Source: Pseudomonadota bacterium
Lineage (GTDB): Bacteria > Pseudomonadota > Alphaproteobacteria > UBA1280 > RI-95
Reading direction: 5' to 3'
DNA: 64,000 nt
Assembly: GCA_016125375.1 (NCBI GenBank)
Contig: WGLU01000008.1
Location: 62,001-126,000 of the forward strand
Shown: positions 6,597-46,153 of the stretch, piece after piece
Position numbering within the stretch: position 1 is the first letter of the stretch
Layout: every line of letters begins with the position of its first letter
Notes under the pieces: generated by a model
The model's database searches: none
What the model was told of the DNA's origin: nothing
Seen by the model: the letters and a program-made list of their open reading frames with translations, nothing else
Made by a program: the position numbers and the translations under genes

Positions 6597-6881
6597 ATGC
6601 GTGGTGGCGGAACCTTGGGCCTCATCGGCCTGCTGCTATTCCTGTCCGTATTCGCCGTGTTCTTTGTCACGGCCATCTGGGCGGGCGTGGCCTTCTCCAA
6701 CTGGCTCGTGCCGTTGCTCATCAGCACCAACATGAGCGGTTTTCTGGCTACCCTTCTCGGCGTCATCGGCGGTTTCATCGTCGGCGGCACCGTCGGTCAG
6801 GTCTGCGCGAGCGTCTACGGCTTCATCCTGCAGCTGCTCGGCGTCGGTGTCGGCCTGAGCCTCTTCGGCCGTCGCCGTTAA
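6597..6881 (+). CDS. Small glycine-rich membrane protein between addA and addB, unknown function
   Basis: 94 residues with two long hydrophobic segments (about residues 5-38 and 45-85), ending GRRR, so an inner-membrane protein with a cytoplasmic tail. No known family. Start: ATG at 6597 after AGGAAAGG; the longer in-frame extension is the pyrimidine-rich leader translated by chance. It stands alone, opposite in direction to addA and addB, with its own terminator. Leader layout and GC-rich third positions match other isolated unknown genes in the window. Confidence 0.75.
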   Translation: MRGGGTLGLIGLLLFLSVFAVFFVTAIWAGVAFSNWLVPLLISTNMSGFLATLLGVIGGFIVGGTVGQVCASVYGFILQLLGVGVGLSLFGRRR

Positions 6882-15152: not shown

Positions 15153-15881
15153 TCAGCCTTTCGGCCGACGGACATCTCGCTTGTTATCCCCCAGCAGGTA
15201 CGGCACCATCTGGCGCAGCACCATGGCCGAGAGCATGTAGCTGTGGCTCGCGTACTCCTTGCCGGTTTCGCTCACCGCCGTCAGCATGCCGACCAGCAGG
15301 CCGTCCTTGTTGACGACAGGACTGCCGGAGTCGCCCATACGGCAGGGCAATGTGAGGGTGACAAACAGACCCTTGAGCTTCTCAAGGCCGATTTCCGTGT
15401 CCTTTTCCACACGTCCGCGGACCATACGGTCCTCGTCGTGCTGGTACATGAACACAAGCTCGCGACCTCCAGGCAGACCTGCCATGTCCGGCGCCGTGAC
15501 AGACTGGCTGTCCGCCAGCGTAATCACAGCCACATCCACCCTGGCGGACCAGACAACATCAGCCGCGGCAACCCACACACCGCCGATGCACACTTCCACG
15601 TGCTCGGGTACGGCAATATGGTCAAGGACATGGGCGTTGGTCACAAAGTGTGTGCCATCCCAAGCCCAAGCCTGTCCGGTGTAATAAATCTGCCCTTTCA
15701 GGTCATAGGCCCTGACGGCAAACGTAACACCGGCAACTTCGGGGGCGGTTTCCACCTCATCCGCAGAAGGCGCGGTGATAATGGGTTCGGGTTGTGGGCG
15801 TGACTTGCTGCGTGCATACAGCAATCCGGCCGTAAAGCCTGCCGCCGAAGCAGCGAGGGCGATGAGGACTTCCATGGGCAT
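15153..15881 (-). CDS. Membrane-anchored S1-type serine protease, copy 1
   Basis: About 242 residues. A hydrophobic N-terminal segment (residues about 4-22) acts as anchor or uncleaved signal. The chymotrypsin-fold triad is seen as TNAHVLD (His), VDVAVI (Asp) and MGDSGSPV (Ser), so it should be an active periplasmic protease. No PDZ domain, unlike DegP. Start: ATG at 15881 with GGAG at seven-base spacing. Preceded by its own promoter and pyrimidine-rich leader. It is a divergent paralogue of the next gene; the targets are unknown. Confidence 0.85.
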   Translation of the reverse strand: MPMEVLIALAASAAGFTAGLLYARSKSRPQPEPIITAPSADEVETAPEVAGVTFAVRAYDLKGQIYYTGQAWAWDGTHFVTNAHVLDHIAVPEHVEVCIGGVWVAAADVVWSARVDVAVITLADSQSVTAPDMAGLPGGRELVFMYQHDEDRMVRGRVEKDTEIGLEKLKGLFVTLTLPCRMGDSGSPVVNKDGLLVGMLTAVSETGKEYASHSYMLSAMVLRQMVPYLLGDNKRDVRRPKG

Positions 15882-15950
15882 AAAGGCGCTCCACGTGTCG
15901 GGAAGAGAAATCAAGAAACGGAAAAGGGATGAGGGTTGTATACACTCTGG

Positions 15951-15979
15951 ACTGTATAAAGGCTGCCGGGTTTTGACAA
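15951..15979 (-). promoter_or_regulatory. Promoter of S1 protease copy 1
   Basis: Minus-strand TTGTCA, 17-base spacer, TACAGT, about 70 bases upstream of the start. The identical -10 sequence and spacing recur upstream of two of the unknown genes near 32-34 kb. Confidence 0.6.
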
Positions 15980-15980
15980 C

Positions 15981-16006
15981 AAAAAACCGCTCCCCGAAGG
16001 GAGCGG
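15981..16006 (-). terminator. Intrinsic terminator of S1 protease copy 2
   Basis: CCGCTCCC/GGGAGCGG stem with four-base loop, then six T on the minus strand, 45 bases past the stop at 16051. It borders directly on the promoter of copy 1. Confidence 0.88.
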
Positions 16007-16050
16007 TACCGTTTGTATGGCCAAATGCCGTGTCCTTTGCCCTTGCGGAC

Positions 16051-16782
16051 CTAGTCTTCGGCAGCCGGCTGATAGTTGACGAGCGTCACCATGACCTGAC
16101 GCACCAGTTGCGCACCGAGCATATAACTGCCCGGGTCGGCACCTTGGGTTACGACGGCCGCACGGGTCACCAGACCCAGCACGTTGCCGCCAGCGTCAAA
16201 CACGGGACCGCCGGAATCACCCGAACGGCTCGGCAGCGACGTGGTTGCGAACTTCTCGCTTTCGATGGTCACCTCCGAAGCGGAGACGACCGCACCGGTC
16301 AGGACGCGCTTTTCGCTCGTGTTGTAGTAAAACACGGGTGTACCGACGGCAGGCATGCCGCGCATGCCTGCAATGGGTACGCCATGTGGCTTGCTGAACT
16401 CGATCAGGGCGACGTCGTGGCTGGTGGACCAGACGACCCGCGTGGCAGAAATCCACTTACCGTTGACCAGCACCTTGACGGCACTGGCGCTCGGCGTTTC
16501 TTTCACCACGTGGGCATTGGTCACGATGCGGGTTTCGTCCCACGCAACGCCGTGCCCGAGTTTGACCATAGTACTGTCTTTGATGCCGCCCTGTACCTGC
16601 ACCACGAAAGGACGAATGTCCACATTAGGCTTGGGTACCGCGGTATCTTTCTGGAGCGGGATGGTGATGGCCGGGGGAGCCCGGAACACCTCGGGCCTGA
16701 GGTACATAACCGTCGCCGCCCCACCAGAACCTGCAATCATGCCCCAAATAAGCCAGAGCAAACATAGACCGATGGCACGCAT
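16051..16782 (-). CDS. Membrane-anchored S1-type serine protease, copy 2
   Basis: 243 residues. An N-terminal hydrophobic segment (residues 4-27) is followed by a chymotrypsin-fold domain with TNAHVVK (His), SHDVALIEF (Asp) and RSGDSGGPV (Ser). It shares the layout of copy 1, including the VWSTS/VWSAR segment before the Asp and the C-terminal SYMLGAQLVRQ versus SYMLSAMVLRQ, which argues for tandem duplication followed by divergence. Start: ATG at 16782 with GGAGG at six-base spacing and a pyrimidine-rich leader. Substrate unknown. Confidence 0.85.
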   Translation of the reverse strand: MRAIGLCLLWLIWGMIAGSGGAATVMYLRPEVFRAPPAITIPLQKDTAVPKPNVDIRPFVVQVQGGIKDSTMVKLGHGVAWDETRIVTNAHVVKETPSASAVKVLVNGKWISATRVVWSTSHDVALIEFSKPHGVPIAGMRGMPAVGTPVFYYNTSEKRVLTGAVVSASEVTIESEKFATTSLPSRSGDSGGPVFDAGGNVLGLVTRAAVVTQGADPGSYMLGAQLVRQVMVTLVNYQPAAED

Positions 16783-29652: not shown

Positions 29653-30273
29653 TTAGTGGGCAAAAATATCCGTTTCTTCCCAACCGGCCTCGTCCAGCAG
29701 GGCGCGGTGCGGCAGGTAGGCAAAGGCGGCCTCGGCCATATGCAAACGGCCAACCGCATTCAGACGCTCAATCAGGATTGTGCGCAGCTGGTGCAGGTAC
29801 AGCACATCGCTGGCGGCGTATTTCTTCTGGTCCTCGCTCAGCGCAGGCGCTGCCCAGTACGAGGTCTGTTGCTGCTTATCCAAGTTCACACTCAGCAATT
29901 CGTTGCAAAGCTCCTTCAACCCGTGACGATCGGTGTAGGTCCGCACCAGTTTGCTGGCAATTTTGGTGCAGAATACCGGTGCCACGTCCACGCCTAGATG
30001 GTGATGGAGGATGGCAATGTCAAACCGCCCGAAGTGGAAAATCTTGGTGATGTTCTTATCGGCCAGCAGTTTTTTCAGATTCGGGGCCGACCAGTCGGTG
30101 CCGTCAAACTGCACCAGCCATGCATTCCCCTTGCCGTCACCAACCTGACAGACACACAAACGGTCGCGGCCAACCTTCAGGCCCAGCGTTTCGGTATCCA
30201 CAGCAACGGCACCGTCAAAACTCAGGCCAGCGGGCAGGTCGTTCAAAGAAACATGAATCGTCGGTTCGGACAT
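29653..30273 (-). CDS. rnd: Ribonuclease D, short form
   Basis: 206 residues, a lone DEDDy 3'-5' exonuclease domain without the HRDC domain of the enteric enzyme; this short form is usual in Alphaproteobacteria. Acidic residues seen in VDTETLGL, FGRFDIAIL and YAASDVLYL. Likely trims tRNA or other stable RNA 3' ends. Start: ATG at 30273 with GAGGGA upstream; the longer in-frame extension to 30351 runs into the terminator of the next gene. Confidence 0.92.
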   Translation of the reverse strand: MSEPTIHVSLNDLPAGLSFDGAVAVDTETLGLKVGRDRLCVCQVGDGKGNAWLVQFDGTDWSAPNLKKLLADKNITKIFHFGRFDIAILHHHLGVDVAPVFCTKIASKLVRTYTDRHGLKELCNELLSVNLDKQQQTSYWAAPALSEDQKKYAASDVLYLHQLRTILIERLNAVGRLHMAEAAFAYLPHRALLDEAGWEETDIFAH

Positions 30274-30349
30274 TTTTCCCTCGTACTTTATCGGCGCTCG
30301 GCGGCGTGTATAAACTTGCCCTACCATACGCCATTTTGATTTTTTGGGC

Positions 30350-30380
30350 AAAAAGAAAGCCCCGCAGATGCGGGGCTTTC
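30350..30380 (-). terminator. Intrinsic terminator of family gene A
   Basis: GAAAGCCCCGC/GCGGGGCTTTC 11-bp stem (30355-30365 with 30370-30380) then a T tract on minus; ten bases past the stop at 30391. Confidence 0.93.
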
Positions 30381-30390
30381 GGGTCGATTG

Positions 30391-31521
30391 TCAGGCGTGC
30401 TGCATTTCCATCTGCGGGCTGCTGACGAACAGCAGGGCGCGACGGCGGGCACGCTCGGCACCGGTGTCATCCTGCGACAGGACCGCGAAGGCCTGCAGGA
30501 TGGCGATGATGAGGCTGCGGTAGCTGGCGCGGGTTTCGGCGTCCGCCAGGGTCTTCTCGAACTTGCGGAAGGCCTTGGGGTCGAAATCGCTGACCTGCGT
30601 GTTGTCGCCGCCAACCACCAGGGTGGCGAAATCGAACAGCAGGCTGGCACGGCCACGTTCGCCGCCGACCTCCAGATGGATGACCGACTTGTTGCTCAGC
30701 GTCAGCGGCACCCACACGTAGTGGAGCTCGCGATTGGCCTCGTCCACGCCGGCGTACATCATCAGCGGCACGCGCGGGATACGGAACAGCGCTTCGACGT
30801 CGCTGGCGCGGATGTTCTCCGCCCCGACCGACTCGACACGGGCCAGCCAGCGGCTGACCAGCGAGGGCTTGAGGTCGTAACCGACCATCGTCAGCGCCTT
30901 GTCGATGAGCGACAGGAACTGCGGCAGGTCGGCCATCAGCTCGTCCGAGACCTTGCAGCTGCGCAGCGCGTTGCCGCGCATCTGCTCCATGGTCGCAGCC
31001 AGCACTTCGGCGTGCTGCGCGAAGATGGACAGGATCTGGGCCTGCGCCGCCTTGGCACTGGTCAGCGCCGCCACCGGGAAACCGGCGACCGCACGTTCCA
31101 GAATCAGGCGCATGCGCACGAACGGCTCGTCGAGGTAGGCCTCGGCCAGCGCCTCGAGGTTGAGGCTGACCTTGGCTTCGTCCGCCGAGTGCAGGCAGAA
31201 GCCGTGGCCGCGGAGCATGTAGCCTTCGTCCTCGAACACCATCAGGGACATGAAGCGCATGCCCATGACGTGGAGTTCGATGATGAGGCCGGTCACTTCG
31301 GTGCCCGCCTCGTTCGGCAGGACCTTGAGCTGCAGCTGCGTCACCTGCACCACGGGCGAGGTGAGCATCACCTGCTCGAAGGCCTGAATGTCCGACAGCG
31401 ACGCGAAGACCGGCAGGTCATTTGCGAACGCGCCCGGCTCCAGGCCGAATACCTGCTCCACCTGCTGCAGAAACACGGGCAGATGGCGCTTGAGGCCGCT
31501 GGAAAACGGCAAGTTTTGCAT
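30391..31521 (-). CDS. Unknown protein, member A of a three-gene tandem family
   Basis: 376 residues, predicted soluble and without signal peptide. Layout: helical N terminus (about 1-58), beta-rich segment (60-112), helical segment (115-215), second beta-rich segment (240-290), helical end (295-350) with ASYRSLIIAILQAFAV then a basic ERARRR. The same order recurs in the next two genes, and the two halves of each protein look alike, suggesting an internal duplication. No known family recognised. Start: ATG at 31521 with GGGAG upstream and pyrimidine-rich leader. Strong GC bias at third positions. Confidence 0.85.
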   Translation of the reverse strand: MQNLPFSSGLKRHLPVFLQQVEQVFGLEPGAFANDLPVFASLSDIQAFEQVMLTSPVVQVTQLQLKVLPNEAGTEVTGLIIELHVMGMRFMSLMVFEDEGYMLRGHGFCLHSADEAKVSLNLEALAEAYLDEPFVRMRLILERAVAGFPVAALTSAKAAQAQILSIFAQHAEVLAATMEQMRGNALRSCKVSDELMADLPQFLSLIDKALTMVGYDLKPSLVSRWLARVESVGAENIRASDVEALFRIPRVPLMMYAGVDEANRELHYVWVPLTLSNKSVIHLEVGGERGRASLLFDFATLVVGGDNTQVSDFDPKAFRKFEKTLADAETRASYRSLIIAILQAFAVLSQDDTGAERARRRALLFVSSPQMEMQHA

Positions 31522-31603
31522 CGGTTGTCTCCCTTTCGGAAAACCTTGCGGTAAGGGTAAAATGTAGGAAACGGGAAAAGAAGAACATAAGGTTCCATTG
31601 GGT

Positions 31604-31632
31604 GGTTTAGCACAGTTACCCTAGGGGTGCAA
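31604..31632 (-). promoter_or_regulatory. Candidate promoter of family gene A
   Basis: Minus-strand TTGCAC, 17-base spacer, TAAACC. The palindrome TTGTATACAA lies directly upstream at 31635-31646 and may be an operator. Confidence 0.45.
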
Positions 31633-31646
31633 GGGTTGTATACAAC

Positions 31647-31678
31647 AAAAAAGAAAGGAGCCTTTGCAGGCTCCTTTC
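31647..31678 (-). terminator. Intrinsic terminator of family gene B
   Basis: GAAAGGAGCCT/AGGCTCCTTTC stem (31653-31663 with 31668-31678) then six T on minus; 18 bases past the stop at 31696. Confidence 0.93.
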
Positions 31679-31695
31679 AGGGGTCGATTGACGTG

Positions 31696-32748
31696 CTAGA
31701 GCACTTCCATGTGGTTGCCCACAGTCAGGAAGAGCACCAGTGCGCGGCGGATGGCCTCGCACTTGTCCTTGCGCTTGGTCACCACCTCGATGGCGTTGAC
31801 CAGGCGGCAGGCCCGTTCGTACACGAACGCCCGCTCCTCCACATTCAGGGTTGCCGCCAGTTCGCCTGCCAACTCGGGCAGGAAAACAGCGTCTTCCTTG
31901 GTACTGAAGGTGGCGAAGCGCAGGTCGATGTCCAGCCGCTCGTCGGAGACGATAACGTCAAAGCTGACCGTCGCCGTGACCGGGATACGGAACACGATGC
32001 CGACAATCCGCTGCTGGCGGGACGACGTCCGGTAGATCGGCTGGAAGAACGCGCTCGTACCCTTGAGCACATCATCCAGATTCTTGCCTTTGGGCGTGCT
32101 GCTCAGCAGCCCCACATCGTGGCGCCATCGGCCGGCATAGCTGAGGTCGGTCTTGCCGTGGTAGCGGTCGAGCATATACAGCCCGGCCTCCATGGCGCCG
32201 ACCATCTGCGGCGAGAAGTCGTAGTCGTAGAAGTTGTCGAACTGCAGCGCGCGGATGATGCCTTTCCTGACCTTTTCCAGCTTGGCATCGCCCCCGGTGG
32301 GGAAGTTGCCCAGCGCCTGATACAGGAAAAGCTTCTGCTTGAAGCTGGCAGACGGCAGGTTGTTGACCGCCTCGTTCACCACACACTCGGCAGCGCCGAG
32401 CGATGACAGAACAAAGCCGGGACCGGCCAGAACCGTCTGGTTGCCAAAGAAGCGGATGTCCATCAGCGGCTCACCGTCGAGGATGAACGTGAAAGACGCG
32501 CCGGAGGCCAGATGCTTGTTCGGTCCGTTGCTGAACAGCGGTTTGATGCGATAGCTGAGCTTGCCGGGCATGCTGGTCTTGGCCAGAACGTTGACAACGT
32601 CCTGAAAATCTTCCAAGTCCTCCATGTCACGGGCAACATCCACCACATCTGCGGCAGGCACGTCAAAGACGGCGGCCAACAGATACAGGAACGGCTCCAT
32701 GTCGCGAATGAATGCCGTCGAAAGCGGCGTGTTGTCTTGTGTCGACAT
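31696..32748 (-). CDS. Unknown protein, member B of a three-gene tandem family
   Basis: 350 residues, predicted soluble. N-terminal helices (FLYLLAAVFDVPAADVVDVA) correspond to FLQQVEQVFGLEPGAFANDL of member A and FLTALTKELGGDEVALAAAI of member C. A beta segment (SFTFILDGEPLMDIRFFG) and helices follow, then a second beta/helical half ending EERAFVYERACRLVNAIEVV and KCEAIRRALVLFL. Identity to A and C is low by eye but the pattern and lengths agree. Start: ATG at 32748 with CTGGAGG upstream. Function unknown. Confidence 0.85.
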   Translation of the reverse strand: MSTQDNTPLSTAFIRDMEPFLYLLAAVFDVPAADVVDVARDMEDLEDFQDVVNVLAKTSMPGKLSYRIKPLFSNGPNKHLASGASFTFILDGEPLMDIRFFGNQTVLAGPGFVLSSLGAAECVVNEAVNNLPSASFKQKLFLYQALGNFPTGGDAKLEKVRKGIIRALQFDNFYDYDFSPQMVGAMEAGLYMLDRYHGKTDLSYAGRWRHDVGLLSSTPKGKNLDDVLKGTSAFFQPIYRTSSRQQRIVGIVFRIPVTATVSFDVIVSDERLDIDLRFATFSTKEDAVFLPELAGELAATLNVEERAFVYERACRLVNAIEVVTKRKDKCEAIRRALVLFLTVGNHMEVL

Positions 32749-32835
32749 AAGGGCGTTACCTCCAGAGAAAGAGGAACCATAAAAGAGATCGGGTGGGTGA
32801 AAAGTAGAAAGATACGTCCAGATAGACAGGGATTA

Positions 32836-32864
32836 ACTGTATGGTATTTATGCCGCCCCTTCAA
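32836..32864 (-). promoter_or_regulatory. Promoter of family gene B
   Basis: Minus-strand TTGAAG, 17-base spacer, TACAGT; the same -10 and spacing as the promoters of family gene C and S1 protease copy 1. Confidence 0.6.
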
Positions 32865-32884
32865 GCACATCGGCACGCGCATGC

Positions 32885-32916
32885 AAAAAAAAGAGGCACC
32901 GCATAAGCGGTGCCTC
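32885..32916 (-). terminator. Intrinsic terminator of family gene C
   Basis: GAGGCACCGC/GCGGTGCCTC stem (32893-32902 with 32907-32916) then eight T on minus; 14 bases past the stop at 32930. Confidence 0.93.
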
Positions 32917-32929
32917 CTCGTTTGTGGGG

Positions 32930-34102
32930 TTAGTCGTTGTCGTCATCCGTCGGCTTGAGCACGTCGAAGCCCGGGATGCTGAGCGTCTGGGCGATCTGCC
33001 GACGCGCCGCTTCGGCCTTGGCGTCACCGTTGGTGAACGCACCGAAGCCCTGCACCATGTGCAGGATGACGTCGATCATCGTCGCGCGGCGTTCGGCCGA
33101 CAAGCCTTCACGCTCGCCATGCAGCGCCATCAGCGCCGCACCGTTGACGAACGCGGCACTGCCGTGAACGTGGACCGAGAACTCCGGCGCCACCAGGCTG
33201 GCGTCGCCATCGAGCCCGAGGCCGATGAGGATGCTGCTGATCGCACGGCCGGCATCGTCGGTGAGCGACAGCTCCAGACCCAGACCGGCGACTTCGCCTT
33301 CCTTGGCGCGGATGGCCAGACGCAGACCGAACTTGCGCAGCGGCTCGATGATGGCCGCAACGTCCTTGCCGGTCAGGAACTTGCCCGCCGGCAGCGTCCG
33401 CAGGCGTGCCTGCAGGGTCGCTTCCAGGCCGGTGCCCTGCTTCAGGCCCATGGCGTCGTCGACGATGGAGAACAGCGCTTCGATGTTGTCCATGACCTTG
33501 CCGCTGATGGGATAGCCCATCGGGTCGACATAGCCGAGGTCGTTCAGCGCCTCGAGGCGCATCTTGTCCGCAGCCGAGCCCTTGGCAAAAGCCGGGGAGC
33601 GCAGCAGGTGGAACATGAACGCACGGACCGTTTCGGACAGGTTCTTGAGCTGGCCCATGGCACCGCTGTGGTACTCGGACTGGCTGTCGTCCTTGTCGTT
33701 CAGGCTGGTTCCCGGCGCGACCAGGTGCAGATCGTCGGTGGTGATGACCACGCGCGAGAAGATCTGGCGACCGATGCCCGGATCGGCGACGATGACGTCG
33801 ACGATGAGCAGCGTAACCTGATTCTTGCCCTGCAGCTGCATCACCTGAGGCGTCAGCCCCAGCGCGATGACCGGGATGGCCTTGCCGTCGTCGGTCTGGA
33901 TGTGGCGGCGAAAGATCGGCGCGGTGATGAGGGCGTTGTACACCGGCACCAGGTCGCGGTCGTCTTCCAGCTTGGCGATGGCCGCCGCAAGGGCGACTTC
34001 GTCACCGCCCAGCTCTTTGGTCAAGGCCGTCAGAAACGGCACCAGACGCGCCTTGAGGGCGGCCGCAATCGGGGTACGGGGGGTATCGTTGTCGTTGGAC
34101 AT
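32930..34102 (-). CDS. Unknown protein, member C of a three-gene tandem family
   Basis: 390 residues, predicted soluble. N-terminal helices, a beta segment (NQVTLLIVDVIVADPG), helices with LSETVRAFMFHLLRSPAF, a second beta segment (LGLELSLTDDAGRAISSILIG) and C-terminal helices with AERRATMIDVILHMVQGFGAF and AEAARRQIAQTL. The two helical segments resemble each other (SETVRAFMFHLL versus AERRATMIDVIL), supporting an internal repeat. Start: ATG at 34102 with GGAGG at nine-base spacing; the long in-frame extension is the pyrimidine-rich leader and tRNA region. Function unknown. Confidence 0.85.
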   Translation of the reverse strand: MSNDNDTPRTPIAAALKARLVPFLTALTKELGGDEVALAAAIAKLEDDRDLVPVYNALITAPIFRRHIQTDDGKAIPVIALGLTPQVMQLQGKNQVTLLIVDVIVADPGIGRQIFSRVVITTDDLHLVAPGTSLNDKDDSQSEYHSGAMGQLKNLSETVRAFMFHLLRSPAFAKGSAADKMRLEALNDLGYVDPMGYPISGKVMDNIEALFSIVDDAMGLKQGTGLEATLQARLRTLPAGKFLTGKDVAAIIEPLRKFGLRLAIRAKEGEVAGLGLELSLTDDAGRAISSILIGLGLDGDASLVAPEFSVHVHGSAAFVNGAALMALHGEREGLSAERRATMIDVILHMVQGFGAFTNGDAKAEAARRQIAQTLSIPGFDVLKPTDDDND

Positions 34103-34188
34103 AGGGTATGTCCTCCATGCAGAATGGAAAGAGAAAAAAGGGGGAAAAGAGAAAAGGAAAGATGCACCAAACAATAGGTGATACGCAC

Positions 34189-34217
34189 ACTGTAAAAGAG
34201 CCGCCCAGCCATTGCAA
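34189..34217 (-). promoter_or_regulatory. Promoter of family gene C
   Basis: Minus-strand TTGCAA, 17-base spacer, TACAGT, about 87 bases upstream of the start, followed by a leader of nearly pure C and T. Confidence 0.65.
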
Positions 34218-34561: not shown

Positions 34562-35323
34562 ATGTACCTGGCAAGAACTTTGGGCACTGCCTGCCTGTGT
34601 GCGCTTATCAGCGTGAACACCGTATGGGCAGAGGACCAACACGCAGCCCCTCACTGGGGGTACGACGGCGCAGGCGCTCCCGTTTACTGGGGTGACCTGG
34701 ATGAAAGTTTCAAAACATGCACAACCGGTAATGTACAGTCACCCGTTGATATACGGCCAAACAGCGAACAGGCAAACCTGTCACCGTTGACTTTGAACTA
34801 CAAAACCACAGGCATGCATATTCTCAATAACGGCCACACCGTCCAGCTGAACTATGACAAGGGCAGCACCATGCAGGTCGGGAATGATGTGTACGACCTC
34901 GTACAGCTGCACTTCCACACCCCCAGCGAAAACCTGATTGACGGCAAGCGCTTTCCGATGGAGATGCACCTCGTCCACAAACGCGGTGACGGTACACTGG
35001 GCGTACTGGGTGTTATGATTCAGGAAGGACGGGCAAACACAACAGCCACCCGCATCTGGGACAACATGCCCATGCAGCAACAGGCCGAAACCACCATCCC
35101 CGGGAGCGATTTTAACGTCCTTGACCTCATTCCCGGCGACCTGCACTACTACGGCTTTATGGGGTCGTTAACAACACCGCCCTGCACTGAAGGTGTGCAC
35201 TGGCATGTGCTGCAGACGCCCATTACCTTCTCGGCCGAGCAGATCGAGCAGTTCCGCAAGGCCTTTGCCATGAATGCCCGGCCGCCCCAGCACCTGAACG
35301 GACGCCCTGTAGCAACCGACTAG
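34562..35323 (+). CDS. Alpha-class carbonic anhydrase, exported
   Basis: 253 residues. Signal peptide of about 23 residues ending NTVWAE. Zinc ligands are seen as LHFHTPSEN (two His) and EMHLVHK (third His); also TGNVQSPVDI and SLTTPPCTEGVHWHV, all typical. It hydrates CO2 in the periplasm. Start: ATG at 34562 after AAGGATCTGACC. Size is normal for bacterial alpha-type enzymes. Stands alone between tRNA-Leu and the ABC exporter operon. Confidence 0.96.
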   Translation: MYLARTLGTACLCALISVNTVWAEDQHAAPHWGYDGAGAPVYWGDLDESFKTCTTGNVQSPVDIRPNSEQANLSPLTLNYKTTGMHILNNGHTVQLNYDKGSTMQVGNDVYDLVQLHFHTPSENLIDGKRFPMEMHLVHKRGDGTLGVLGVMIQEGRANTTATRIWDNMPMQQQAETTIPGSDFNVLDLIPGDLHYYGFMGSLTTPPCTEGVHWHVLQTPITFSAEQIEQFRKAFAMNARPPQHLNGRPVATD

Positions 35324-35337
35324 GGTAAAGGGCCAAG

Positions 35338-35366
35338 AAAAAGCGGGCACCCTGTGCCCGCTTTTT
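35338..35366. terminator. Bidirectional terminator between carbonic anhydrase and ABC exporter genes
   Basis: AAAAAGCGGGCAC/GTGCCCGCTTTTT 13-bp stem with three-base loop; A and T runs at both ends serve both strands. It touches the stop of the exporter gene. Confidence 0.93.
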
Positions 35367-37146
35367 ATGCGCTGGCCGCGTGTTTCTGGTATTCCTGCCA
35401 CAATCGGTAAAAGGCCCCGCGCTGGGCCAGCAGGTCATTCATACTGCCCTGCTCCAACACTTTGCCGTCAGCCATAAAATAGATTTCGTCAAACATATGC
35501 AGCAGGTGCAGACGGTGAATGGATGACACCACACACATATCCGGAAACGCCGCGAACAGGTTTTCGTAGATCTTAGCCTCGGTCAGGGCATCCACACTGC
35601 TGGTGGGCTCGTCCAGCAGCAGGAGCGAACTGTCCTTGGCCGCAAACACACCGCGCGCCAGCGCAAGACGCTGTTTCTGCCCGCCGGAAAGGTTGACGCC
35701 CTTCTCGCGGATATCCGTCTCCACCCCCTTGGGCAGGTCGGCAGCAACGGTATCAAAGCAGGCAATGCGCATGGCTTCGGCACGTTCTGTGTCCGTATGG
35801 GGCAGGCCGACGGTGATGTTGTAGGCAATTGTGTTTTCGAAAATCTCCGGTTCCTGCGGCACCAAAGTTGAGATGCCCATGAGCGGCAGGGCGCTGTCGA
35901 ACGCAACCCCGTCCACAGTCAGTTTTGCCGTCTCGCTTTCGTACAGCCCCCGCAGGATGGACATCAGCGTGCTCTTGCCCGCACCACTGTGGCCCACAAG
36001 GGCAATTTTACGTCCACGTTGAAGGAGCATGGTCACATCCTGCAACTGGTGTTCCCGCTGTTCCTTGTCCGCATACCGGAAGTTGATGTGACTGACCGTC
36101 GCCTGTTGCCAGTCGCGCAGCGTGGGCAGGTCCTGCGCACGGGTTTTATCCAGCGCCTGCCATGCCTGCAAAATGGGTTGTACGGCTTGCAGGTCGGTGT
36201 GGCCGCGCATCAGGTTCATGTACGCCATGGCGAAGGACGTGAGCGCGTAGTTAAGCTGCTTCATGTACTGGAACAGCGCCACAACCGTACCGGCCATGAC
36301 CAGCCCGTGACTGTCCACGCTGTACCAGATGTAACCGACAAGCGCGCAGACCTCGATAAGCGTAATAAACACCCACAGGCTGAACCATTTAATCTCGTTA
36401 AGCACATTTGCCTTATCGAACGGACCAAACAGGCTAAGCAGGCGCGTCACCAGCTCGTTATGGGTCAGCTGCTCCAGACGTAAAGTAATCACGGTGGAGA
36501 TGTTGCCCATGTAGTCGTAAAAGGCGGAGGAAAAGAGGTGCTCGCGTTCGTTTTCCGCATCGTAATAGGTCACCAGCTTGCGGTCGAACAGCGCCATAAC
36601 GCTGAACACCACCACTGCTGACAGCAGGACGGGAACCCCCACCACAGGCGCAATCAGCAACATGGCAACCACGGCGCCTGCAAAGCGGAATCCGATTTCC
36701 AGATACCAGAACTGGCTGCTGGAAAAATCGTACAGGGCGCGCGCGCCTTTGTTGATGCGGTTGATGATACTGCCGGAATGGTGGTCCTGATGCCACTGGA
36801 GCGGCAGGTCGGTCACTTTGGCATACAACTCGTCATAAAAGCGGCGGCGTATCTGGAAGGCGGTGCGGTTTTCGATAACGCGTGCCGGACCATGGAACGC
36901 CCAGAACCCCATCATCAGCAGGCCATAGATGGCCATCCAGTACAGGGCATCCATCAACATGGTCGGGCCGCCCTGTTGCAGGGTGTTCACGGTCTCGCCC
37001 ACGACCCACGGCTGCCATAACACAAATGTGTTTGCCGTTAAAAATGCCAGATAGGTACCCACCACATAAGGGCGGCGGCGGCCAGCGAAGTGCCAGACGG
37101 CCTGAAACATATAAAGCGCGTGAATGCGGGAGAACTTTTCCATCAA
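35365..37146 (-). CDS. ABC exporter (fused membrane and ATPase domains), third in the operon
   Basis: 593 residues: a six-helix membrane domain (about 20-320) and an ATPase domain (about 350-590). Seen: Walker A GHSGAGKST, signature NLSGGQKQRLALARG, Walker B SLLLLDEPTSSVD and an H-loop SSIHRLHLL. It differs from the two upstream exporters (HRLHLL in place of AHRLSTI), so it is the most diverged of the three. Four-base gap to the upstream gene. Substrate cannot be told; a heterodimer with a neighbour is possible. Confidence 0.9.
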   Translation of the reverse strand: MMEKFSRIHALYMFQAVWHFAGRRRPYVVGTYLAFLTANTFVLWQPWVVGETVNTLQQGGPTMLMDALYWMAIYGLLMMGFWAFHGPARVIENRTAFQIRRRFYDELYAKVTDLPLQWHQDHHSGSIINRINKGARALYDFSSSQFWYLEIGFRFAGAVVAMLLIAPVVGVPVLLSAVVVFSVMALFDRKLVTYYDAENEREHLFSSAFYDYMGNISTVITLRLEQLTHNELVTRLLSLFGPFDKANVLNEIKWFSLWVFITLIEVCALVGYIWYSVDSHGLVMAGTVVALFQYMKQLNYALTSFAMAYMNLMRGHTDLQAVQPILQAWQALDKTRAQDLPTLRDWQQATVSHINFRYADKEQREHQLQDVTMLLQRGRKIALVGHSGAGKSTLMSILRGLYESETAKLTVDGVAFDSALPLMGISTLVPQEPEIFENTIAYNITVGLPHTDTERAEAMRIACFDTVAADLPKGVETDIREKGVNLSGGQKQRLALARGVFAAKDSSLLLLDEPTSSVDALTEAKIYENLFAAFPDMCVVSSIHRLHLLHMFDEIYFMADGKVLEQGSMNDLLAQRGAFYRLWQEYQKHAASA

Positions 37147-37149
37147 CGC

Positions 37150-39000
37150 CTACTCCGGCAAAAAGCCGCCTGCCTGCATATTCCACAGGCGGGCATAAAG
37201 GCCACGGGGCTTTCTCAACAGCTCCTCATGGGTGCCATCTTCAATCACATCGCCATCCTCGAACACCAGAATACGGTCCATGTTGGCGATGGTGGACAGA
37301 CGGTGCGCAATCACCAGCACGGTGCGCCCGGCCATGGCCTGTGCCATGGCGTTCTGGATGTATTTCTCGGATTCGGAATCCAGCGCGCTTGTCGCCTCGT
37401 CCAGCACCAGCACGGGGGCACTTTTGAGCATGGCACGGGCAATGGCAATACGCTGACGCTGCCCGCCGGAGAGTTTAATACCCCGCTCGCCGACTAGCGC
37501 GTCATATCCTTCGGGAATCAGGCGGATGAACTCGTCGCAGAACGTCTGACGGGCAACCTCTTCTACCTCGTCATCGGTCGCGTCCACGCGCCCGTAGCGG
37601 ATGTTTTCTTTCAGCGACCGGTGGAACAGCATCGGGTCCTGCGGAATGGTGGAAATGCTTTCACGCAGACTTTCCTGCGTGACGCCGGCAATGTCCTGTC
37701 CGTCAATTTCAATCGCCCCGCCGTCCAGATCGTACAGGCGCAGCAGCAGATTGACGAACGTGCTTTTACCCGCACCTGAAGGACCAACAAGCCCGACCTT
37801 CTGTCCGGCCGGAATCGTCAGGTTAAGGTTCTTGAACACGGGGGTGCCGTCCCGATAGCAGAACGTCACGTCGCTAAAGACAATCTCGCCTTTGGTCACG
37901 GCCAGTTCTTTGGCACCGGGAGCATCGGTTACCGCGTGGGGACGTGTCAGCAGGTCAATGCCCTCGTTCGCTGTGCCCACCTGTTCGGCAATCTCCAGAA
38001 AGCGGGTGCTGAGCCCCTTGACCGATTCCGACAGCAACATCCCCAGTGTCATCACCATGGCAAAGTCACCGGCACCGATGGTCCCCGCCTGCCACAGTTG
38101 CAAGGCCATCACCACCAGCGCCACCATCAACACCAGCGAGGCGGCTTCCTGCAGAATACGGATATATTCCATGATGATGTACACCCTCTGGGCGGTATGC
38201 ACCTCCTGGTTCAGGTAGCGGGCCAGATAGTCGCGCTCGTAGTTCGCGCGGGAAAATGCCCGGATGTTGGCCATGTTGGTCACGGCGTCCACAATTTTGC
38301 CCGTCAGGGTACTGCGGGCGCGGGCGTAGGCCTCCACATCCCGGCGAGTGTAGGTAGACAGGATGTAGGATGCCACCACATAAACAACCGACCAGCCAAA
38401 TAGCATCAGCGTGAGCGTACCGTCCACATGGGACAGGAAAAAGAGCGCCATGCCGAGGCGGATCATCATCGGCATCAGGTCAAAGGAAAAGACCATGATG
38501 ATGTCGCCGACCTTGGTGGCAACCTCGTTGATTTTATGGGCCAGCGACCCGGCAAAGTTGCCCAGAAAGTATCCGTGTGCGTGCTGCTGCATATAGGCGA
38601 ACAGTTCGTCGCGCATATGGGCGCGCATGGGCGGGCGGGCATACATGAAAAAGATGCCTTCCAACCGCTTGCAGGCGATGTTGGCGGCAGAGATACCCAC
38701 AAATATCCAGAGCGGCGTTGCAAAGTGGGCGAGCATTCCCTCCAGCCCCGTTACCGTACCGGCAGGCATGCTGGCCGCGGCGTCCATAATACCCTTGATG
38801 GCATAGGGCACGGACATCGCCGTAACCGCGGACAAAATGCCGAACAACCACGTAACAGCAAAGGCGCGCCAGTGGCGACGCGACAGGAAGTACCAGATAA
38901 AGGGCAACAGCCTGTCCGGTAGTGTGCGCACCTGTGGTGCGGCGATACTCTGCCAGGACTTGCGCTTTGCTGATGGGGCGGTGGCCAGTTCTGCTGACAT
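37150..39000 (-). CDS. ABC exporter (fused membrane and ATPase domains), second in the operon
   Basis: 616 residues. Membrane domain about 30-340, ATPase domain about 370-610 with GPSGAGKST, LSGGQRQRIAIARAML, VLVLDEATSALDSESE and AHRLSTIANMD. Ends ARLWNMQAGGFLPE, exactly as in the upstream exporter. Most of the ATPase domain is close to that of the first gene, whereas the membrane domains have diverged, suggesting duplication plus gene conversion or selection. Four-base gap to the upstream gene. Confidence 0.92.
   Translation of the reverse strand: MSAELATAPSAKRKSWQSIAAPQVRTLPDRLLPFIWYFLSRRHWRAFAVTWLFGILSAVTAMSVPYAIKGIMDAAASMPAGTVTGLEGMLAHFATPLWIFVGISAANIACKRLEGIFFMYARPPMRAHMRDELFAYMQQHAHGYFLGNFAGSLAHKINEVATKVGDIIMVFSFDLMPMMIRLGMALFFLSHVDGTLTLMLFGWSVVYVVASYILSTYTRRDVEAYARARSTLTGKIVDAVTNMANIRAFSRANYERDYLARYLNQEVHTAQRVYIIMEYIRILQEAASLVLMVALVVMALQLWQAGTIGAGDFAMVMTLGMLLSESVKGLSTRFLEIAEQVGTANEGIDLLTRPHAVTDAPGAKELAVTKGEIVFSDVTFCYRDGTPVFKNLNLTIPAGQKVGLVGPSGAGKSTFVNLLLRLYDLDGGAIEIDGQDIAGVTQESLRESISTIPQDPMLFHRSLKENIRYGRVDATDDEVEEVARQTFCDEFIRLIPEGYDALVGERGIKLSGGQRQRIAIARAMLKSAPVLVLDEATSALDSESEKYIQNAMAQAMAGRTVLVIAHRLSTIANMDRILVFEDGDVIEDGTHEELLRKPRGLYARLWNMQAGGFLPE
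37151..37203. repeat. Direct repeat, copy 1, at the end of an ABC exporter gene
   Basis: 53 bases identical to 39005-39057 except one position; covers the final codons (AGGFLPE region) of both exporter genes. Confidence 0.9.
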
Positions 39001-39003
39001 GAA

Positions 39004-40845
39004 TTACTCCGGCAAAAAGCCGCCGGCCTGCATATTCCACAGGCGGGCATAAAGGCCGTTACGCTTGAGCAGTTCTTCGTGACTGCCGTCTTCGACAATG
39101 CGGCCTTGGTCAAACACAAGGATGCGGTCCATATTGGCGATGGTCGACAGACGGTGCGCAATCACCAGCACTGTGCGCTCTTTCATCAAATCGTCCAGAC
39201 TCTGCTGGATGTACCGTTCGGACTCGGAATCCAGCGACGATGTGGCCTCGTCCAGAACCAGAATCGGCGCGTCTTTGACCATGGCGCGGGCAATGGCGAT
39301 GCGCTGGCGCTGACCGCCGGAGAGCTTGACCCCCCGTTCGCCCACCAGCGCGTCATAGCCTTCCGGCACGTCCTGAATAAAGTCGTGGCAGTAGGCACGG
39401 CGGCTGGCTTCCAGCACCTCTTCATCCGTGGCATCCTCGCGCCCGTAGCGAATATTTTCTTTCAGGGTACGGTGGAACAGCATCGGGTCCTGCGGAATCA
39501 TGGCAATATTGGCACGCAGACTGTCCTGCCGGACATGGGCGATGTCCTGCCCGTCAATTTCAATCGCGCCGCCATTCAGGTCATGCAGGCGCAGCAGCAA
39601 GTTGACGAAGGTGCTCTTGCCCGCGCCACTATGCCCCACCAGCCCGATTTTCTGCCCACCTTCAATGGTGACGTTCAACCCGTCAAACACGGCAACACCG
39701 GCTTTGTGGGCAAAAGTCACATCTTTAAAAACAACGCGGCCGTTGGGCACTTTCAGAGCAGGCGCTGCGGGCACATCCACAATCTCGTGCGGACGGATGA
39801 TGATGCTCACCCCATCGTTGATGTTGCCCACGTATTCAAAAAACTCCAAAAAGCGGCGGCTCAGACCCCGTGCGTCATTCACCAGCGTGGTACACAGGCC
39901 GAACACGACCACGAACGCCCCCATGGAGATCTCGCCCGCGGCCCACAGGCGCATGGCGTACATCACCATCCCCACCAGCAAGGACGCAGCCGCAAGGAAC
40001 TGGAACCAGCGCATGATTTCCATAAACCAGAAGGTCTTGCGGGCTTTCATCACCTCCATTTGCAGGTAGTCCTTGAGGTACTCCCGCTCATAACGGCGGC
40101 GGCTGAACAGTTTGATGTTCATGATGTTGGTCACCGCATCGACAACCTTGCCGCTGACTAGACTGCGCGCCGCGGCAAAATCGCTGGCCAGAACCCGGCA
40201 GCGGCGCGCCAGCAGGAACGATACCGCCACATAGACCATCGTCCACATGGCCAGCACGGCGGCCAGCTCCGTATGGGCTTTGAACAGCAGGTACATGGAT
40301 ACGCTAAAGCTGACTGTCACAGGCCAAAAGTCGAACATCACCGTCCACAGGGCGTGGTTCACACTGGTGGCGACCTCGGTAATACGGTTGGCCAGCGACC
40401 CGGCAAACTGCCCCATAAAATAGCGGTGGGAGTGGTGTTGCAGATACGCAAACAGCCCCTCGCGCGTGCGGGCACGCAGGGCGGGGCCGATAATCACCAG
40501 AATACTGCCGCTGGTCCGCGAGCAGAGGATGAGCATCAGGTTGAGCAGGGCAAAGTGCACCAGCGGCGACCACATCACATCCAGCACGTTGGCAGAGGTG
40601 ATAGTGCCTTCAACAGCGCGCATACTGTCAACCAGACGGCCAACCGTTGCCGACATCAGCACAGGTGCTGCGGCCTGACCGGCTTCCAACAAAATCATCA
40701 CCGATAGACCAAGCCAGTAATACCGGATAAAATACAAACTGAACTTGAGCGGCTGGTTCGGCAATGGCGGCGCATCGGCGGCGCGCACCGAAACAGGCGC
40801 GGCACCTGCCGCAACGGAAACCGGGTTTTCAAGAACGTCGGACAT
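39004..40845 (-). CDS. ABC exporter (fused membrane and ATPase domains), first in the operon
   Basis: 613 residues from the ATG at 40845 (GGGGGA upstream). Hydrophilic N terminus, six-helix membrane domain (about 40-345), ATPase domain (about 375-610) with GHSGAGKST, LSGGQRQRIAIARAMV, ILVLDEATSSLDSESE and AHRLSTIANMD. First gene of a three-gene exporter operon ending at 35365. The family includes lipid A, lipid and peptide exporters; substrate not predictable from sequence. Confidence 0.92.
   Translation of the reverse strand: MSDVLENPVSVAAGAAPVSVRAADAPPLPNQPLKFSLYFIRYYWLGLSVMILLEAGQAAAPVLMSATVGRLVDSMRAVEGTITSANVLDVMWSPLVHFALLNLMLILCSRTSGSILVIIGPALRARTREGLFAYLQHHSHRYFMGQFAGSLANRITEVATSVNHALWTVMFDFWPVTVSFSVSMYLLFKAHTELAAVLAMWTMVYVAVSFLLARRCRVLASDFAAARSLVSGKVVDAVTNIMNIKLFSRRRYEREYLKDYLQMEVMKARKTFWFMEIMRWFQFLAAASLLVGMVMYAMRLWAAGEISMGAFVVVFGLCTTLVNDARGLSRRFLEFFEYVGNINDGVSIIIRPHEIVDVPAAPALKVPNGRVVFKDVTFAHKAGVAVFDGLNVTIEGGQKIGLVGHSGAGKSTFVNLLLRLHDLNGGAIEIDGQDIAHVRQDSLRANIAMIPQDPMLFHRTLKENIRYGREDATDEEVLEASRRAYCHDFIQDVPEGYDALVGERGVKLSGGQRQRIAIARAMVKDAPILVLDEATSSLDSESERYIQQSLDDLMKERTVLVIAHRLSTIANMDRILVFDQGRIVEDGSHEELLKRNGLYARLWNMQAGGFLPE
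39005..39057. repeat. Direct repeat, copy 2, at the end of an ABC exporter gene
   Basis: Partner of 37151-37203, one mismatch in 53 bases. Confidence 0.9.
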
Positions 40846-40913
40846 GGTTTTCCCCCGTGCAGGCAAGAGTTGAAATAAGCGGCGAAGGCGACCAGTCAAG
40901 AAACGGCGTGTGC

Positions 40914-41636
40914 ATGATTCGTGACGTGTCCCATATGCTAATAGGCTTTGCGGCCCACGGCAAGCGCGAGGATGGACAAAAAATGCTCAAACAGGCACGT
41001 ATAATTGCTCTGGCTCCCTATGACACGCCCCTGACACAGGACGACTGTGTCCTCCTGCGGGCCAGCCTGATTGAAAATGACGTCAACCTGCCGCAACACG
41101 CCCTGGAAAACCTGCACCGCCGCGTCCTGACGGCCTGCCGTCTGCACGGTGACGCCGCAGCCGATGCCTACCTTGGCATCCGCAGTCACTTCCGCACCAT
41201 TTTCGTCCCCGAACATGTGGACCGCGCCCTGAACAGTTATATCGACCTGTGCGAGGGTACTTTTACTCTGGAAGAGGTTGTCCGCGGAGCGGATATTCGT
41301 CTGCTGGCACCGTTGTTCACCTGCGGCATTACGGGTATGGGGCTGGCCCACCACTTGCTGCGCCACCCGGACGAACGGGTGCTGGGCAGCATCTTCGGCG
41401 ACCTGCACGGACGAATTTACTGGGGTAACTTTACCAGCCAGGAACGGCTGGATGCCCGGACCTGCCTGAGCGCCTTCCCGACCTGCGAAGTGGTTACGGA
41501 ACTCAAACAGGCGCTGGAGGCACGCAACCGTTCCTATGAGCTGAAATATCTGCTGGAGAGCATTCTCCAGCCGCAGCAAAGCGGGGCGACAGTCACCCCC
41601 CTATTTGTATGTCCGGTGCCAGATAAAGCAGAATAA
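40914..41636 (+). CDS. Unknown helical protein overlapping uppP
   Basis: 240 residues from the ATG at 40914. Mostly helical and soluble by eye, with no motif that I recognise. Start uncertain: the ATG at 40980 (MLKQARIIALAPY) has GAGGA about ten bases upstream and leaves out a less protein-like N terminus, so it may be the true start; a promoter-like TAATAG lies between. Divergent from the exporter operon. Its last 44 bases overlap the end of the convergent uppP gene. Confidence 0.65.
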   Translation: MIRDVSHMLIGFAAHGKREDGQKMLKQARIIALAPYDTPLTQDDCVLLRASLIENDVNLPQHALENLHRRVLTACRLHGDAAADAYLGIRSHFRTIFVPEHVDRALNSYIDLCEGTFTLEEVVRGADIRLLAPLFTCGITGMGLAHHLLRHPDERVLGSIFGDLHGRIYWGNFTSQERLDARTCLSAFPTCEVVTELKQALEARNRSYELKYLLESILQPQQSGATVTPLFVCPVPDKAE

Positions 41637-42417
41637 CACCCAACACCACGCGGTAGAGGACAAAGGGCCAAAAGCCCGTCTTGCCGATAAGCTTCATCAA
41701 CCCATGTATGGCCAGCATCGCCGCAAGGAATGAAATAGCCGCGCCGGAGAGCAAATCCCACAGCGCTGTATGCCAGTTGATCTCGGCATGGAACATATCA
41801 CCGGCCGAAGCACCGCCTACCAATACAATCACCGGAATTGCCATCAGCATGGAAAAGTAGGCCGATGTATCGCGGCTCAGACCCAGCAGCCGCCCCGCCG
41901 TCATGGTAATGCCCGAGCGCGAGGTGCCCGGAATCACCGCCAGCGCCTGCAACACACCAAACATCAACACGTGTTTGAGGCCGAACTTGGCAACCGGCAC
42001 ATCCGCACCCTCTGTCCGGCGGTCAGCCAGCCCCAGCAACAGACCAAAAATAAGCGACGTCAGGCCCAGCACAACAAAACTGCGACCCTGTGTTTCCACA
42101 AAGTCCTTCAGCAGGAGCCCGGCAATCCCTACAGGGATGGTAGCGACGGCCAGCAATTGTAACAGTCGGGCGTCTTCGGTCTTAAAACGGCCACGCACAT
42201 GGTCCAGCGCCCCCAGAATCATCCGCCACGTATCGGCACGGAAGTACCACATCACCGCACCCAGCGTCCCCAGATGCACGGCGATATCGAACACAATCCC
42301 CTGATCCGGCCAACCGGTCAGCAAAGGAACCAGCACCAAGTGGGCGCTGGAGGAAACAGGCAGGAACTCGGTAATCCCCTGAACAACGCCGAGGGTGACG
42401 ATTTCGAGCAAGGTCAT
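41593..42417 (-). CDS. uppP: Undecaprenyl-diphosphatase
   Basis: 274 residues, multi-pass membrane protein. Dephosphorylates undecaprenyl diphosphate to recycle the lipid carrier of cell-wall synthesis. Diagnostic motifs: GITEFLPVSSSAHLVL near the N terminus and PGTSRSGITMTAGRLLG near residue 165. Start: ATG at 42417 with AAGG ten bases upstream; a TTG two codons earlier is less likely. Confidence 0.96.
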   Translation of the reverse strand: MTLLEIVTLGVVQGITEFLPVSSSAHLVLVPLLTGWPDQGIVFDIAVHLGTLGAVMWYFRADTWRMILGALDHVRGRFKTEDARLLQLLAVATIPVGIAGLLLKDFVETQGRSFVVLGLTSLIFGLLLGLADRRTEGADVPVAKFGLKHVLMFGVLQALAVIPGTSRSGITMTAGRLLGLSRDTSAYFSMLMAIPVIVLVGGASAGDMFHAEINWHTALWDLLSGAAISFLAAMLAIHGLMKLIGKTGFWPFVLYRVVLGVILLYLAPDIQIGG

Positions 42418-42480
42418 GTGCAATGCACCTTATTGTTACGCTAAGGGCAGAGTTTACTGCACCGCCGCGACGGCTGCCAT

Positions 42481-45529: not shown

Positions 45530-46153
45530 TCAGCCGACGTAAGGGTCGGTCACAACCAGCCGGCCATCGGCCGGACGGTACATGATGTTGGCTGTCTGGG
45601 TATCCAGACCAAGAGATTTGGCATCCCTCAGGGCACGCACCTGTGCCACAACCTGCCGGATTTCCCTGATGGTCGCACTGTCAGGCTTTTTGTAGCCAAA
45701 CAGCATCTGGCTGAGGGACCACTGCGCGTTGAACAAATCTTCGCTACGGGTCGACTTGATGCTGACCAGCGGCTCCATCAATGTCAGATGGAAGCCCTTT
45801 GCCACATCGATCGTCCGGTGCAGGTAGATGCGCGGGTAATGCGGATTATCCGCATGTTCCATGGCCAGCCGCACGAAATGCGGGTAGCCCCTGTCGGTAC
45901 GGGTGAGTTTGCACACCACGCCGTCAACCAGATACACATCACTGAAGGCACCGCTGTCCAGATAGATACCGCCCTGAGCCTCAAGCGCCTGCCGAAGGGC
46001 AAGGAACGACGGCTCGTGCAGCGTCAAATGGACCAGTTGGTTGTATATATCCCGCGCTTTGGCGGGCAGTTCGGGTGACTGGAGCAAACTTTCCCCGCGC
46101 AGGCGCGCAAGGGCGTCCTGCTCCTGCAGGTGAAAGTACAGCGCTTCGCGCAT
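45530..46153 (-). CDS. Minimal protein-kinase-like protein
   Basis: 207 residues, about half the size of a normal aminoglycoside-phosphotransferase or protein kinase. Seen: a glycine-loop-like DSGAFSDVYLV near residue 70 with VVCKLTR providing a lysine, a hinge region (LTLMEPLVSI), and a catalytic-loop-like GLDTQTANIMYRP (Asp and Asn) followed by LVVTDPYVG, an equivalent of the DFG/metal-binding Asp, right at the C terminus. So key residues are kept but the C lobe is missing beyond the DFG equivalent. Start: ATG at 46153 with GGAG at six-base spacing. Substrate unknown. Confidence 0.72.
   Translation of the reverse strand: MREALYFHLQEQDALARLRGESLLQSPELPAKARDIYNQLVHLTLHEPSFLALRQALEAQGGIYLDSGAFSDVYLVDGVVCKLTRTDRGYPHFVRLAMEHADNPHYPRIYLHRTIDVAKGFHLTLMEPLVSIKSTRSEDLFNAQWSLSQMLFGYKKPDSATIREIRQVVAQVRALRDAKSLGLDTQTANIMYRPADGRLVVTDPYVG

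Follow-up and report, generated by a model that had tools for sequence, protein, structure and literature searches.

A tandem array of three paralogous genes tied by a pyrimidine-rich leader to other genes of an uncharacterised alphaproteobacterial clade

Three genes on the minus strand of a 64,000-nucleotide stretch of alphaproteobacterial DNA, referred to here as the window, encode proteins A, B and C, which have no detectable relative, possibly adopt a new fold and are probably needed by their host. Profile comparisons indicate that they are homologous and form a tandem family derived from one ancestral gene. Each gene carries a pyrimidine-rich leader, a simple sequence tag which, in two genomes of this uncharacterised clade, is found on approximately 15% of the independent genes. 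This leader connects orphan genes with genes for peptidases and quality control, and provides a means of predicting joint action among unknown genes. The A/B/C family on its own is an orphan, and the leader class with its tandem arrays is the more surprising finding.

Gene array and homology of A, B and C

The genome of the window (G000) was compared with two genomes, G005 and G003, which represent a different family within the same small order of Alphaproteobacteria. In the window, the ORFs of C, B and A lie head to tail on the minus strand.

32930..34102, minus strand: gene C, 390 aa, transcribed first of the array (ORF, Shine-Dalgarno sequence, orthologues in G005 and G003)
31696..32748, minus strand: gene B, 350 aa (ORF, orthologues in G005 and G003)
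30391..31521, minus strand: gene A, 376 aa (ORF, orthologues in G005 and G003)
29653..30276, minus strand: rnd (ribonuclease D-like), the neighbour downstream of the array, conserved in position in G005 and G003 with 62-68% identity
39004..40899, minus strand: ABC exporter, with its orthologue directly before C in G005 and G003; adjoins uppP (41593-42423)

The true start of gene C is the ATG at 34102, and not that of a longer ORF of 482 aa. Downstream of the array follow rnd, kdsD, lptC, lptB and rpoN. Upstream of C, a tRNA-Leu gene and an alpha-type (eukaryotic-type) carbonic anhydrase occupy the opposite strand. The carbonic anhydrase (34562-35320, plus strand) has a likely signal peptide; only in the window does it stand between array and ABC genes. 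Three ABC exporter genes stand in tandem at 35365-40899 (minus strand), and G005 and G003 have one each at the corresponding place.

An earlier note on this DNA had described A, B and C as three tandem paralogues, and this description is borne out by the ORFs and by profile-profile comparison of each protein with the others. As single sequences, the proteins match each other weakly in BLASTP (E 1e-4 to 0.03). Profiles were built for each from the orthologue trio of the three genomes, and C and B align with E 3e-10 over 332 columns, while the C-A (E 9e-7) and B-A (E 3e-6) alignments cover the N-terminal half. In single-profile searches, the C profile finds A with E 1e-11, and the A profile finds the C protein of G005 with E 1e-10 and B with E 5e-7. 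The paralogues rank right behind the orthologues in HMM searches of some thousands of ORFs. Similarity by chance was ruled out by the profile-profile scores and reversed controls. The similar N-terminal patterns quoted in that note do align with each other, and in the similar C-terminal helical end it saw, the last helix has an E-x-x-R-R motif common to the proteins, the most constant feature of the family. Over the nine sequences of A, B and C from three genomes, M1, one F and one R are the sole invariant residues.

Distribution and divergence

The order C-B-A is kept upstream of rnd in G005 (locus L005) and G003 (L006), with the same gene order and sizes. In both genomes the array lies between rnd and the ABC exporter that adjoins uppP. 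A, B and C evolve fast, as their orthologues are approximately 17-27% identical, compared with 55-69% for rnd, uppP, ABC, lptB, rpoN and hpf. Since three ordered copies have been kept through this deep divergence, the family is probably needed by these bacteria. In a tree of the nine sequences, each paralogue clusters with its counterparts from the other genomes (support 82-94), and the triplication therefore appears to predate the separation of the two families (f1 and f4), an age that the long branches of the tree leave not beyond doubt.

Three of the six sampled genomes of the order, the three most complete, contain the array. It is absent from G002, where uppP adjoins rnd with neither ABC exporter nor array in between, and from the rnd neighbourhood of G001. 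In the latter genome, three rnd-like and two kdsD-like genes lie close together (L071, 2452-7437), apparently as repeated rnd/kdsD units whose later copies are more divergent.

Outside the three array genomes, no credible further copy turned up in a sample of more than 500 other genomes. Apart from the array genomes, the searches, which covered 385 genomes of the class and 399 of the phylum, returned chance-level fragments only. The C query found no match among contigs of named relatives, and none of the named alphaproteobacterial loci found with an RNase D query has the array. Weak matches in G083, G055, G094 and G507 (E 4e-4 to 8e-3 in a search of hundreds of genomes) were rejected as chance; these fragments are short, one with an internal stop and one within a frame of 13,628 residues.

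Internal duplication and predicted structure

Each protein is likely a two-repeat protein that arose by internal duplication of a unit of approximately 180 residues.

33533..34102, minus strand: C repeat unit 1 (residues 1-190), helices, beta-sheet, helices (half comparisons, unit profile, model)
32933..33532, minus strand: C repeat unit 2 (residues 191-390), C2-A1 E 5e-5, C2-A2 E 4e-10 (model, sheet partly of low confidence)
32233..32748, minus strand: B repeat unit 1 (residues 1-172), B1-C1 E 1e-5, B1-A1 E 7e-7
31699..32232, minus strand: B repeat unit 2 (residues 173-350), B2-C2 E 3e-6
30967..31521, minus strand: A repeat unit 1 (residues 1-185) (half comparisons, model)
30394..30966, minus strand: A repeat unit 2 (residues 186-376) (half comparisons, model); N-terminal helices lost in the G005 and G003 orthologues

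The halves were compared as profiles alongside reversed-sequence controls. Between paralogues, corresponding halves match (C1-B1, B1-A1, C2-B2 and C2-A2). The sole significant cross match joins the second half of C to the first half of A (E 5e-5 over 139 columns, with reversed controls at E 0.04 or worse). Against 3,553 background ORFs, a profile of the first halves places two second halves on top, weakly (E 0.09 and 0.31). A profile of all 18 units recovers exactly six units in each array genome and no unit in the remaining three of the order's six genomes.

Structure prediction, which the earlier note had recommended, gave AlphaFold2 models of C (pLDDT 79, pTM 0.77) and A (pLDDT 78, pTM 0.70) in which both halves consist of helices, antiparallel strands and helices. 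The second sheet of the C model is poorly resolved, in part below pLDDT 50. The duplication is considered likely because of the C2-A1 sequence match and the same order of elements in the C and A models. These results agree in part with the earlier view that the two halves of each protein look alike. Evidence from sequence is weak but real, and within a single protein, half 1 and half 2 show no significant similarity (local E 0.007-0.5).

Searches for known families and folds

That the family is unrecognised, as had been claimed, agrees with the searches of Pfam, NCBIfam, PHROGs, PADLOC, PDB sequences and PDB and viral folds, none of which gave a match. In Pfam and NCBIfam, the best values for the window proteins are E 0.03-0.13, far short of the cut-offs, and for the other orthologues E 0.016 or worse. 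The best PHROG (E 0.36) and PADLOC (E 0.03) values each concern one member and are not significant, and the best hmmsearch value against PDB chains is E 0.11. Foldseek returned no match at E 0.001 or better for the C and A models against the PDB, where the best values were E 0.21 (C) and E 0.11 (A) at TM-scores of about 0.1, nor for the C model against viral structures. There is no sliding clamp among PDB fold matches at this threshold, and a viral PCNA model appears in the C fold search only with E 0.56 and TM 0.10. Collections of phage, plasmid and viral contigs contain no relatives of A, B or C. A new fold is a possibility, judged from predicted models compared with PDB and viral structures.

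Transcription units

Every gene of the array is followed by a terminator, and one candidate promoter stands out from shuffled sequences.

32890..32919, minus strand: intrinsic terminator after C, hairpin and T run
31653..31678, minus strand: intrinsic terminator after B, hairpin and T run
30355..30380, minus strand: intrinsic terminator after A, hairpin and T run
32836..32864, minus strand: candidate sigma-70-type promoter of B, TTGAAG-17-TACAGT, above shuffles (P 0.05)

The terminators of C, B and A are strong, with 13, 11 and 11 uninterrupted pairs, respectively, followed by a T run, and terminators occur at nine of nine genes in the three genomes. Rfam matches to Leu_leader, RsmY and asX2 were rejected, as they lie on the terminator hairpin and far below the gathering score. 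Promoter-like hexamers are found at similar distances, 62-87 bases from the ATG, and mostly do not score above shuffles; with a promoter PWM, just two genes do, both of them B genes (G000 and G005), and the A and C candidates in the window do not. Of the earlier proposal that each gene has its own promoter, leader and terminator, the leader and terminator hold in all three genomes and the promoter is supported for B only, while those of A and C are plausible and not proven.

Pyrimidine-rich leader class

A stretch rich in pyrimidines precedes each gene of the array.

34103..34166, minus strand: 5' leader of C, 24/24 pyrimidines in the best window, GGAGG
32749..32820, minus strand: 5' leader of B, pyrimidine-rich, 21/24
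31522..31592, minus strand: 5' leader of A, pyrimidine-rich, 21/24

Across the nine genes in three genomes, the best 24 bases directly upstream of the Shine-Dalgarno sequence contain 20-24 pyrimidines. The leader class was defined by at least 21 pyrimidines in 24 bases directly upstream of the Shine-Dalgarno sequence, together with an own upstream region of at least 60 bases. C, B and A of the window belong to it with 24, 21 and 21, as do the G005 genes with 23, 23 and 24; in G003, C has 23, while B and A, with 20 each, fall just under the cut-off.

A simple, rough gene caller was used to scan sampled stretches of G000 (580 kb in total) and G005 (479 kb). The class comprises 82 of the 551 genes with an own upstream region (approximately 15%) and none of the 375 genes close behind another gene, and the distribution of pyrimidine counts shows a second hump at 20-24. 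It is missing from the other genomes of the order (G002 0/45, G001 0/18 and G004 0/19, together 0/82), and occurs in 1/199 genes at named alphaproteobacterial loci, 0/35 of the Pelagibacter type and 4/65 in G003. Since the class is essentially missing from the other sampled genomes, the leader accompanies the array-bearing genomes in this small sample.

The 82 leader proteins match 38 Pfam families in all, with 13 matches to peptidase families: Trypsin_2 six times, prolyl oligopeptidase twice and M3, M17, M41, M48 and M50 once each; nucleases and DnaJ are also present. For the 82 control genes the number of families is 123, of which the 25 listed belong mostly to core metabolism; by BLAST, the controls include at least two peptidases. 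The peptidase enrichment is an average over the class, and C-B-A may not share it.

Protein S1 binds pyrimidine-rich 5' UTRs (PMC4288201), and the C-B-A leaders are likewise pyrimidine-rich just upstream of the start region. Unlike UTRs of the S1 type (PMC4288201), the present leader, seen in sequence only, tags a distinct set of single-gene units in a few related genomes, with essentially no occurrence in sampled relatives. A literature search whose coverage left out most subscription journals gave no description of such a leader class.

Tandem paralogue arrays with leaders

With a leader cut-off of 20 of 24, an adjacent paralogue was found for 24 of 108 leader genes and for 16 of 443 others with an own upstream region (P 5e-9). 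C-B-A is one of many leader-bearing tandem arrays, though an old one. Since leader genes often form such arrays, the separate transcription units of C, B and A can be explained without separate regulation.

Other arrays were observed in G005: three kinase-like genes (L123, 3807-7413), five DnaJ-like or membrane genes (L127, 10915-15088), four kinase-like genes (L128, 12105-15096) and three membrane proteins (L137, 3116-5643). They consist of lineage-specific paralogues, most members of which have an own pyrimidine leader.

Proposed explanation and alternatives

Our preferred explanation, which we hold tentatively and at somewhat less than even confidence, is that A, B and C form a lineage-specific family of soluble cytoplasmic proteins, encoded by a triplicated cassette, jointly expressed and acting as non-enzymatic partner subunits of one complex. 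The data support a unit of approximately 180 residues (helices, antiparallel sheet, helices) that would occur twice per protein, and this unit may have been duplicated inside the gene. The data also support a tandem copying of the whole cassette of leader, gene and terminator, which would have produced three copies before the f1/f4 split, with the same type of pyrimidine-rich leader apparently retained by all of them. The shared leader could then cause joint expression, either through ribosome loading via S1 or through a common regulator. The proteins would be non-enzymatic partner subunits of one hetero-oligomer and might serve as an adaptor or scaffold in an expression programme with many peptidases and protein-quality-control genes. 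A cytoplasmic location is suggested by the lack of an export signal or membrane segment in sequence or model. Although catalytic residues are hard to see in a family present in three sequenced genomes, we infer an absence of catalysis from the near lack of invariant residues over nine sequences. The hetero-oligomer and the adaptor or scaffold role are a guess from paralogy, co-conservation and the few conserved polar residues. The most extended version, in which C-B-A is a hetero-oligomer of new fold within a clade-specific, post-transcriptional, peptidase-enriched regulon of pyrimidine leaders that grows by tandem cassette copying, is conceivable but doubtful.

The earlier note had concluded from separate promoters that A, B and C are made under different conditions or in different ratios. 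This conclusion is probably wrong, as far as the sequences tell, and three separately regulated promoters are an unlikely explanation of the array, even though leader and terminator are separate for every gene in each of the three genomes and the promoter-like hexamers differ among A, B and C. One kind of leader is common to all nine genes and shared with many single-gene units, which suggests joint rather than separate control. Separate units are, moreover, usual for tandem paralogues here (L123, L127, L128, L137) and require no special reason; copying a whole promoter-leader-gene-terminator cassette would leave them behind. It is equally improbable that the proteins belong to a known superfamily of enzymes or ligand-binding proteins and have diverged past recognition, with the missed match reflecting a limit of the tools. 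The shallow alignment of nine sequences would allow for this, as would models of mean pLDDT 78-79 whose folds were compared with PDB and viral structures, but Pfam, NCBIfam, PHROGs, PADLOC and PDB chains gave no sequence match, Foldseek gave none at E 0.001 or better (both models against the PDB; viral structures), and hardly any polar residue is invariant.

A single envelope module made up of the array, the adjacent ABC exporter and envelope genes (uppP, lpt) is less probable still. The order uppP-ABC-C-B-A-rnd is kept in G000, G005 and G003, and the direct junction of uppP and rnd in G002, which lacks both ABC and array, fits such a module; however, joint gain or loss at one site can result from linkage only. 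Every gene has a separate leader and terminator, A, B and C lack membrane or export features in sequence and model, and the carbonic anhydrase, the tRNA gene and two further ABC genes intervene in the window. Orphan proteins and fast divergence would also be expected of genes from a phage or other mobile element, but this origin is very improbable given the lack of matches in phage, plasmid and viral contig collections and in PHROGs, and a position that has been stable through the split of two families.

Under the preferred explanation of partner subunits, an analogy with the crenarchaeal sliding clamp may be drawn. PCNA1-PCNA2-PCNA3 is a heterotrimer of two-domain paralogues. A, B and C are likewise three paralogues, each probably with two similar domains, and might by analogy form a six-domain assembly. 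Unlike the PCNA heterotrimer, they have a helices-sheet-helices arrangement with no sliding-clamp match among solved structures, and are known from genes and models. The array also resembles orphan (taxonomically restricted) tandem families, being likewise limited to one small clade, fast-evolving, tandem and devoid of a known domain. It differs from these in the C-B-A order fixed across two families, the likely internal duplication and the clade-specific leader on all copies.

Other leader-bearing genes

Leader-class genes of the window include those at 6597, 15881 (minus strand), 16782 (minus strand), 21243 (minus strand), 44298, 46153 (minus strand) and 50357, among others. Outside the window, members were found at L005, L072, L092-L097 and L098-L137, and the class is enriched in peptidases and orphans. 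The leader gene at 45530-46153 (minus strand) has no Pfam match and is akin to the kinase-like array of L128 (E 1e-8 to 6e-5). At 15153-16782 (minus strand), two tandem trypsin-like peptidases, 34% identical, each have an own pyrimidine leader; relatives of this pair occur at L105 and L119.
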